Position numbers and translations under genes: made by a program. Below, piece after piece: positions 48,574-51,568 of a DNA stretch of 64,000 nt; the stretch's first letter is position 1, and each line of letters opens with the position of its first letter. The notes beneath the pieces are model-generated. The model saw only the letters and a program-made list of their open reading frames with translations, was not told the origin of the DNA and did not search any database. Source of the DNA: Halobaculum sp. MBLA0143 (GTDB lineage Archaea > Halobacteriota > Halobacteria > Halobacteriales > Haloferacaceae); NCBI RefSeq assembly GCF_041361465.1, contig NZ_JBGKAC010000001.1:1-64000 (forward strand), read 5' to 3'.

Positions 48574-49464
48574 ATGAGCGCGGACGAGGACAAGTACCCC
48601 GGTGACTCGGGTCGTCGCCGGTTCGTCAAGGGTGTCGTCGGCGGTGCGACGCTAGCCGGCGTCGGAGCGACCGGCTCTGCCGCGATCAACAGCGTCACCT
48701 CGTCGACCGGCGCCGGCGGTGGCCCGACAGAGTCGATGGTGATCGAGAACACGGACGGTCCGGCACCCCGTGGGATGCCACAGGTCCCCATCGAGATCGA
48801 CGGCGACGAACTGAAAGGGGTCTGGCCCGAGGTGAAGGAGAAGACCCAGGGTGGTGTCACCTACGAGGTGGCCGAGACGGACATCGGCGGGATGTCCTAC
48901 TCCTCGGAGTGGTTCCACTTCTGTGGCATGGAGACGTACGAGGCGATTCGCCCGAGCCACGAGCCGGCCGAAGGAAACTACTTCGTCACCGGTTCGAACC
49001 CCACCTACGAGTGGCAGTCGGAGTTCGGCGAGACGGACCGCCTCACCGTCGACATGTTCTCCGACTACGAGGAGTGGGGCAACGGAATCGGCGTCTCCGG
49101 GCTCGGTAAGCCCGCCAGCGCCAACTGGCGCTCGATGGAGACGGAGAAGAGCCTGGTCGTCAACGTCATCCGCTCGCCGGTGATCGAACAGCTCGTCGAG
49201 AACGGCGAAGCGCAGGGCGCCGACGGCCAGACGTACTCGGTCGACGACAGCACACAGTCGTGGCTGCAAGCCACCGCCCCGAAGGGGTTCGTCGCCTGGC
49301 TCAACAAGTGTACCCACTTCTGTTGTGTGCCGAAGTACAAGGGCCTGGGCGGCTCCGCGAAGTTCGACGCCGCAGACGAGGTGTACTGTCCGTGTCACCA
49401 GTCCGTCTACGAGCCGTTCAGCATCGTCCCGACGTTGTTCACCGCCCGACCACGTCCGAAGTAG
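48574..49464 (+). CDS. Rieske iron-sulfur protein (Tat-exported)
   Basis: A 296-residue protein with a twin-arginine helix (GRRRFVKGVVGGATLAG, 13-29) that anchors it outside the membrane. The Rieske cluster is formed by C246-T-H248 and C272-P-C-H275, with C251 and C274 able to make the supporting disulfide; the sequence reads CTHFCC and CPCHQS. The region between is longer than in mitochondrial proteins but usual for haloarchaea. It would carry electrons in a cytochrome bc-type complex; no cytochrome b gene lies next to it. ATG 48574 has a CCTTTTGC box about 27 bases upstream. Confidence 0.93.
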   Translation: MSADEDKYPGDSGRRRFVKGVVGGATLAGVGATGSAAINSVTSSTGAGGGPTESMVIENTDGPAPRGMPQVPIEIDGDELKGVWPEVKEKTQGGVTYEVAETDIGGMSYSSEWFHFCGMETYEAIRPSHEPAEGNYFVTGSNPTYEWQSEFGETDRLTVDMFSDYEEWGNGIGVSGLGKPASANWRSMETEKSLVVNVIRSPVIEQLVENGEAQGADGQTYSVDDSTQSWLQATAPKGFVAWLNKCTHFCCVPKYKGLGGSAKFDAADEVYCPCHQSVYEPFSIVPTLFTARPRPK

Positions 49465-49471
49465 CCGATCA

Positions 49472-49656
49472 CGCCGCAGTCGGCACCGTCCACTTATCAC
49501 CGCCGGAGTCGGCACCGTCCACTTATCACCGCCGCAGTCGGCACCGTCCACTTATCACCGCCGGAGTCGGCACCGTCCACTTATCACCGCCGCAGTCGGC
49601 ACCGTCCACTTATCACCGCCGCAGTCGGCACCGTCCACTTATCACCGCCGCAGTCG
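49472..49656 (+). repeat. 29-bp tandem repeat x6, each unit with a TATA-like box
   Basis: Six exact-length 29-bp units start at 49472, 49501, 49530, 49559, 49588 and 49617, then 11 bases of a seventh. Each has AGTCGGCACCGTCCACTTAT followed by CACCGCC. Only one base differs (C or G at the sixth base, pattern C-G-C-G-C-C). The last CTTATC lies 26 bases before the GTG of the next gene, where a box A is expected, so the array multiplies a promoter element. Confidence 0.95.
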
Positions 49657-49667
49657 ACGTTCTGAGC

Positions 49668-50000
49668 GTGACCGACGACAGCGACGACACCACCGAGACG
49701 GACGACACGGCGTTCCACCGCGAGCTCGCGGCCGCCAGTGACCTCCTGGACAGTGACGGCGTCTCTGCGTTCCACGTCGGCGTCGTCCACGACGACCGCG
49801 TCGACACCGCCTTCGCGCAACACCCTGCCGGCGACCGCGACGAGGAGCTCCAAGCGCTGACGCTCCTGGCGACCCACCTCCGCTTGGTCGCACAGGAGGC
49901 GAACGCCGACTACGACGTCGTCGCCGCCAACGCCGCACAGATCGCCGGCCAGATCGAGGAGAATCGTCCACTCTCCCCGCCCGACGACGACTCGGAGTGA
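49668..50000 (+). CDS. Conserved small haloarchaeal protein downstream of repeat array
   Basis: A 110-residue acidic protein: TDDSDDTTETDDTAFHREL opening, then VSAFHVGVVHDDRVDTAFAQ and LLATHLRLVAQEANADYDVVAANAAQIAGQI. It resembles an uncharacterised haloarchaeal family with no known function. Soluble and probably cytoplasmic. GTG 49668 matches the box A in the last repeat unit. Its expression may depend on how many repeats are present. Confidence 0.7.
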   Translation: MTDDSDDTTETDDTAFHRELAAASDLLDSDGVSAFHVGVVHDDRVDTAFAQHPAGDRDEELQALTLLATHLRLVAQEANADYDVVAANAAQIAGQIEENRPLSPPDDDSE

Positions 50001-50329: not shown

Positions 50330-51568
50330 ATGAGTAGAGACCCCGCGGACGGTCCGGTGTTGGACCCCGACGAGTTCGACATCTCGGAGAACGAGCGGGT
50401 CGCAGAGATCGGAGACGACCGGTACGTCGTCTCCGCGTCCGGCGATCCACCCGACGCCGGCGACCACGATCGCGGGGGTCCAGACGAGCAACGACCGGCA
50501 CGCGAGGAGGACCGACGCGAGTCGGAGTCGCCGGCGCGTCGGGACGAACGGGTCCGCAGCCCGGACACGGACGGCGGGACCGCGGCGCGCGACCCGGCGC
50601 CGCGGCAGGGGAGTCGACAACAACGAGGCGGCGAGGACCGCCGCGAGCCGGAGCCGACCCGTGGGACGACTCCCGGCGGCGACGGTGGCACCCCGCGCGG
50701 TCGGCAGGGCGGTGACGCGGGCGCCGGCCGCCGCGGCGGCGGCGGTCAGCCACAGGGAGGCGGTCAGCCACAGGGAGGCGGTCAGCCACAGGGAGGCGGT
50801 CAACCCCAGAGTGGTGGTCAGCCACAGGGAGGTGGTCAGCCACAGGGAGGTGGTCAACCCCAGGGAGGTGGTCAACCACAGGGAGGTGGCCAGCCACAGG
50901 GAGGTGGCCAGCCACAGGGAGGTGGCCAGCCACAGGGTGGCGGTCGATCGCAGACCAACAGCCAACTCCAGGGCGGCGGCACCGCGGGCGGACGGTCGCG
51001 GGGAGGCGGCCAGCCCCAGAGTGCCGGCAGACCGCAGGGCGACAGTCGCACACGGAACGACGGGCGTGCGGCCGACGCCGGCGGACGGCCCCAGAGCGGC
51101 GACGGGTTCCAGTCGGACGACGGGGGTGGTCGGGGCGGCAGCCGCGACCCGCCGTCGCGGGAACGCACCGGGAGCAGCGACGACGTGGTCCGGGGTGCCC
51201 CGGGCGGCGACGACGTGGACGCCGCGGCCGTCCGACGGTACCTCGCGGAGTCGCTGGCCCACAACGAGTTCGACTACGGCTTCGACGCGACGCTGTCCGT
51301 CGACGGGGAGCCAACCCGCCACCGGATGGTCTCGGACGACCTCCCGACGACGTTCGAGACGCTCGTCACCTGGTTCGCCGACGCGACCGGCGGCGACACT
51401 CCGCCGGAGCGAGTGCTGGGACTCCTCCTGACGAAGTCGGACGTGGCGGTGGAGCTCCCGCCGGACCTGATCCGGAAGGCGGCCGTCGACAACGACCTGT
51501 CGGCCGACGACACCATCGGCGACCTCCTGCGGGCGGCCAAGGAGGACGGCTCCATCACGATGGAGTGA
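50330..51568 (+). CDS. Gly-Gln-Pro-repeat haloarchaeal protein (DUF7500-like), beside cheY
   Basis: A 412-residue protein. The N-terminus VLDPDEFDISENERVAEIGDDRYVVS is a short motif typical of a haloarchaeal family found near cheY. The middle (about 50-290) is Arg/Asp/Gly-rich and has twelve GGQPQ-type units (50736-50942). The C-terminal 110 residues (DDVDAAAVRRYLAESLAHNEFDYGF to TIGDLLRAAKEDGSI) are folded, probably helical. A structural link to chemotaxis or archaella is possible but unproven. A CCTTTTTTT box lies about 27 bases before ATG 50330. Confidence 0.75.
   Translation: MSRDPADGPVLDPDEFDISENERVAEIGDDRYVVSASGDPPDAGDHDRGGPDEQRPAREEDRRESESPARRDERVRSPDTDGGTAARDPAPRQGSRQQRGGEDRREPEPTRGTTPGGDGGTPRGRQGGDAGAGRRGGGGQPQGGGQPQGGGQPQGGGQPQSGGQPQGGGQPQGGGQPQGGGQPQGGGQPQGGGQPQGGGQPQGGGRSQTNSQLQGGGTAGGRSRGGGQPQSAGRPQGDSRTRNDGRAADAGGRPQSGDGFQSDDGGGRGGSRDPPSRERTGSSDDVVRGAPGGDDVDAAAVRRYLAESLAHNEFDYGFDATLSVDGEPTRHRMVSDDLPTTFETLVTWFADATGGDTPPERVLGLLLTKSDVAVELPPDLIRKAAVDNDLSADDTIGDLLRAAKEDGSITME
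50736..50942 (+). repeat. 18-bp repeats encoding GGGQPQ
   Basis: About eleven 18-bp units such as GGTGGTCAGCCACAGGGA encode GGGQPQ hexapeptides; one unit has SGGQPQ and the last GGGRSQ. In-frame repeats vary only at third bases, a sign of repeated slippage under protein-level tolerance. Confidence 0.9.

Follow-up and report, generated by a model that had tools for sequence, protein, structure and literature searches.

A 29-bp minisatellite enclosing the probable core promoter of a small conserved gene in Halobaculum sp. MBLA0143

The stretch of DNA analysed here (the window) comprises the first 64,000 nucleotides of contig NZ_JBGKAC010000001.1 of Halobaculum sp. MBLA0143, the genome of which totals 3.58 Mb in two contigs. 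Within it, a gene for a Rieske-type iron-sulfur protein is followed in the same orientation by a small gene with a GTG start codon, and nearly all of the 203 bp between the stop codon of the former and the start codon of the latter is occupied by a tandem array with a period of 29 bp (Table 1). The initial annotation described the downstream gene as small and conserved, which holds: it is present in 108 of 170 family genomes, and among the 90 loci compared all but one (89) have the Rieske-type gene as its immediate upstream neighbour, similarly oriented. Searches of Pfam and NCBIfam gave no family for the small gene. The fold predicted by AlphaFold, a model of moderate quality (pLDDT 73, pTM 0.43), runs from one helix through a beta hairpin to two further helices, and assignment of a function from weak matches was rejected, the PDB sequence match reaching only E = 0.04 and the best Foldseek match E = 0.19. 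Two genes further downstream, a DUF7500 protein contains a coding repeat of 18 bp × 11 (GGQPQG; window 50744-50945).

Table 1. Features of the Rieske-type gene to small gene interval (window coordinates)
Feature	Position	Strand	Basis or remark
Rieske-type iron-sulfur protein gene, TAT-like N-terminus	48577..49464	+	TIGR01416 (E=4.9e-7, under the family's curated cut-off); CTHFC...CPCH ligands
Incomplete, degenerate first copy (ATCAC-GCCGCAGT; lacks one base and the box)	49468..49480	+	TRF boundary, sequence
Six full 29-bp units, CGGCACCGTCCACTTATCACCGCCG(C/G)AGT	49481..49654	+	variable site reads G,C,G,C,C,C
Additional copies of box A (five), with CTTATC at 49493, 49522, 49551, 49580 and 49609	49493..49614	+	
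Presumed native box A, CTTATC	49638..49643	+	genome AT peak, family box position, L033 alignment
Start-proximal promoter part CGACGTTCTGAGC, unrepeated except for its first two bases	49655..49667	+	conserved with L033
Small conserved gene, 110 aa, GTG start	49668..50000	+	no Pfam/NCBIfam family

The array was called by TRF at 49468-49656 with a period of 29, 6.6 copies, a 96% match and a score of 357, and thus consists of tandem head-to-tail units longer than 10 bp with high identity, as is characteristic of a minisatellite. Its start, placed at 49472 in the initial annotation, lies slightly upstream of that position, 3 nt past the Rieske-type stop codon (TAG, 49462-49464). The six units that had been proposed, each carrying CTTATC, are all present: the motif recurs at intervals of exactly 29 from 49493 to 49638, and its TTAT begins 29, 58, 87, 116, 145 and 174 nt 5' of the GTG. 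The six full units are identical save for one C/G site, at which the partial leading copy carries C. The array is noncoding, as its period is not a multiple of three, it is flanked by the stop codon of one gene and the start codon of the next, and the unit contains neither a start nor a stop codon; a coding repeat was rejected on the period and the missing start codons, though the plus strand is open in all three frames. A genome-wide repeat family was likewise rejected, since no further copy of the unit with up to three mismatches occurs elsewhere in the genome, and a CRISPR-like array was rejected because the sequence has no spacers. An Rfam search of the array gave no match, and an RNA structure or leader element was rejected, the plus strand being less structured than its shuffles (z = +1.97) and the minus strand average (z = 0.16). 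A device acting through the leader is disfavoured by this scarcity of structure and by the lack of start and stop codons in the unit.

According to a dRNA-Seq study, promoters of Haloferax volcanii carry a TTWT box, a BRE of the form CGAAA and a WW at -10, and 72% of protein-coding transcripts are leaderless (PMC4983044). GUG-started leaderless genes in Hfx. volcanii are on average weakly expressed. In the present genome, the regions upstream of 207 called genes with noncoding upstream DNA show a peak of AT content at -29 to -25 and an A-richer stretch at -35 to -33; the scoring matrix was built from the genome's genes with the small gene left out. Counted from the GTG, the final CTTATC runs from -30 to -25, with 24 nt intervening, so that its TTAT spans -29 to -26, within the roughly 25-30 nt expected of a TTWT box before a leaderless start and within a few bases of the 26 that had been reported. 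It scores 3.9, the 44th percentile of genes, a value reached by 0.7% of background positions. CGTCC stands where the CGAAA of a BRE is expected; the boxes of the congeners also lack an A-rich BRE, a usual rather than an absolute feature of the haloarchaeal core promoter. The T-runs of the three congeners score 5.6-6.7 on the same genome-derived matrix. The description of the box as an exact box A thus stands as regards its position and is overstated as regards its quality; CTTATC appears to be a plausible but moderate box A, with a TTWT match and no BRE. The minus strand of every unit (window 49480-49655) scores 7.3-8.2, higher than the plus strand, so the direction of the promoter cannot be read from the motif alone. 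This difference would suit a scheme in which the array acts on the other strand, with promoter-like minus-strand boxes (TGATAAG) from which antisense transcription would run into the Rieske-type gene. TATA-like boxes are, however, near-symmetric, the minus-strand match is likewise without a BRE and no coding-like minus-strand gene follows, and we consider such a scheme highly improbable.

Comparison with the same spacer in relatives is decisive for the identity of the box. The congeners also use a GTG start codon, preceded at the matching distance by a single T-rich box, in spacers of 126 bp (G001/L033), 55 bp (G002/L005) and 69 bp (G003/L034); removal of five units from the array spacer would leave 58 bp, which is similar. 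When the 45 bp directly preceding the GTG are aligned to those of L033, the score is 35, which 0.05% of 2000 shuffles reach, and CTTATC falls under GTTTTTC. Alignments to the remaining two congeners are weaker, with scores reached by 2.4% and 6% of shuffles. Most of the 89 family loci hold one T-rich box (CTTTTC, TTTTT) roughly 29 to 31 nt ahead of the start codon, which is probably miscalled in a few of them. The same array was found at none of these 89 loci, and a 35-bp pattern spanning the array junction is absent from all 196 relatives searched, which rules out an inherited or conserved array. The spacer after the Rieske-type gene in L088 contains a tandem repeat of 25 bp × 2.8 that does not include box A. 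Because the box position matches both the genome AT peak and the box before the conserved GTG of the congeners, the units can be taken as copies of a core promoter, as had been proposed; because the relatives hold a single box and no array, the amplification can be assigned to this lineage. As judged from these alignments and positions, the array is an amplification, in a single lineage, of the small gene's own putative core promoter from about -42 to -14, with the start-proximal part left unrepeated. At one further locus among the 89, from a different genus (L109, G158), a 23-bp segment of the orthologous promoter, box included (CGCTTTC/CGCTTTTC), is present in two tandem copies. This duplication is independent of the 29-bp array, and tandem boxes at this promoter may for that reason be no pure accident.

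The frequency of such arrays was surveyed in 40 stretches of 20 kb each, which make up 800 kb or 22% of the genome and together with the window amount to 864 kb, and in 400 kb of the congener G002, counting arrays with a TRF score of at least 100 and at least 2.5 copies outside called genes. Nineteen other noncoding arrays were found in the host and 23 in G002, although some of the 19 with a period divisible by three may be coding (missed genes); the array of the window is not counted among the 19 because the gene caller extended the frame of the small gene through it. For a 189-bp array placed at random in noncoding DNA, about 5% of placements would enclose a box A. In a sample of some 20 arrays, about one promoter-sited array is thus expected by chance. 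One of the 19 also has a 29-bp period (29 bp × 7.8; L144:13687-13912; G000:C1, about 1043687-1043912); its units are copies of the final part of the gene before it, with the stop codon, and the next gene is 65 bp away. In G002, an array of 97 bp × 3.5 (L173:10123-10459; G002:C1, about 2360123-2360459) has a unit that resembles a tRNA 3' half (GGTTCGAATCCGGCAGGGCCCA); the tRNA finder called no gene there.

We regard the array as likely to be a young, mostly neutral minisatellite that arose by tandem duplication of a 29-bp core promoter segment and is confined to this lineage. The order of bases at the variable site (G,C,G,C,C,C) partly bears out the proposal of C/G alternation and of expansion by two-unit blocks: the alternation is there, and a single mutation with a later duplication of a two-unit (58-bp) block would account for the order, a reasonable but not a unique reading. 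Haloarchaea are polyploid, with many chromosome copies, and two mutations, or gene conversion between chromosome copies, fit the pattern as well; a single variable site does not discriminate between these routes. The near-perfect identity of the units would equally come from active turnover or selection, which counts against neutrality. Under the neutral explanation, we infer that the copy closest to the gene still serves as its promoter and gives a leaderless transcript beginning with GTG, that the five upstream copies are weak TATA-like boxes giving at most a few minor transcripts with leaders stepped by 29 nt, and that the array is mainly a near-neutral by-product of a genome prone to minisatellite formation. 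Such leaders would be harmless and probably translatable, since they contain no start codon and little structure.

The geometry of the array bears on what the extra boxes could do. With the same box-to-start distance in every unit, the start predicted for each extra box would coincide with the first T of the box that follows. On a promoter, an archaeal initiation complex (the TBP/TFB/RNA polymerase footprint) spans more than 29 bp. Since the period equals the box-to-start distance and the complex exceeds it, adjacent units would not be occupied together, and being mutually exclusive they could not give an output that simply adds up. This clash, the single box in nearly all relatives and the abundance of minisatellites leave without positive support the two functions proposed in the initial annotation, a copy-number dial and a reservoir of TBP sites; TBP bound in such a reservoir would moreover compete with the native promoter. 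The clash and the single box in relatives, together with the moderate quality of the box with no BRE, weigh against recruitment of TBP and TFB by the extra boxes, with added transcripts or a raised local concentration of factors, and slippage as a reversible dial of expression. In its favour, all six boxes match TTWT and are identical in the same local context, the promoter of L109 shows a parallel box duplication, and promoter repeats alter expression in bacteria and yeast (PMC3899988). Two start sites occur in 139 genes (7.5%) of Haloferax volcanii (PMC4983044), and most leadered haloarchaeal transcripts are without a Shine-Dalgarno motif (PMC3986360), so that longer leaders could be translated. 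On balance we think recruitment unlikely. If tandem complete archaeal core promoters did form a copy-number-dependent dial, the first archaeal regulatory promoter VNTR, a stepped, non-linear response would be expected, because each unit's start sits on the next unit's box and the units compete; with the copy number read from one genome of the species, we find this very unlikely. The unit might instead be the binding site of a regulator or nucleoid protein, a tandem operator in which the box A match is secondary, as tandem repeats can serve as regulator sites (nadA/IHF, reviewed in PMC3899988). But 29 bp is a non-integer number of helical turns, and a unit unique in the genome and absent from relatives would leave the regulator with one target; we give this possibility scarcely any credence.

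We therefore return to the neutral minisatellite, for which any effect of the array on expression is expected to be small at most. The amplified promoter is probably a recent accident of mild effect at most, given that copied stretches are common in the host genome. Should the extra boxes be inert, the locus would show from a natural case that transcription in archaea tolerates amplified TATA boxes immediately 5' of a promoter; should they be active, it would, within the literature searched, be the first clear example in archaea of a promoter minisatellite able to tune expression. The array allows a clean test, set up by nature, of the effect of extra start signals on gene activity, and is a ready test bed, in which identical core promoters with constant spacing can be directly compared in numbers from one to six.

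A literature search, with most subscription journals outside it and hence weak as evidence, found no archaeal promoter VNTR or regulatory promoter minisatellite. Among known systems, the tandem repeats of yeast promoters (Vinces et al., reviewed in PMC3899988) share with the array repeat number as a possible tuning variable; they belong to eukaryotic promoters and their effect was demonstrated experimentally, whereas the present array is known from its sequence. The phase-variable repeats of bacteria (nadA TAAA, porA poly-G and hifA/hifB TA; PMC3899988) likewise lie in or next to a promoter. Their units are short and act by changing spacing or regulator sites, and both length variation and expression switching have been demonstrated for them, whereas here whole core promoters are repeated, in an array known from one genome. 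Genes of Haloferax volcanii with two start sites resemble the locus in having more than one promoter per gene, with a TTWT box A and mostly leaderless transcripts; the start sites number two, rarely three, and the accessible part of the study does not describe an identical tandem core promoter array (PMC4983044). The array also resembles the noncoding minisatellites, or VNTRs, of prokaryotes, which are likewise near-identical head-to-tail units longer than 10 bp at one locus and restricted to a lineage (PMC6749651). A survey of prokaryotic satellites found that the short repeats of Halobacteria mostly have lengths divisible by three and are coding (PMC6749651), whereas the array described here has a period of 29, is noncoding and, unlike those minisatellites, encloses a core promoter.
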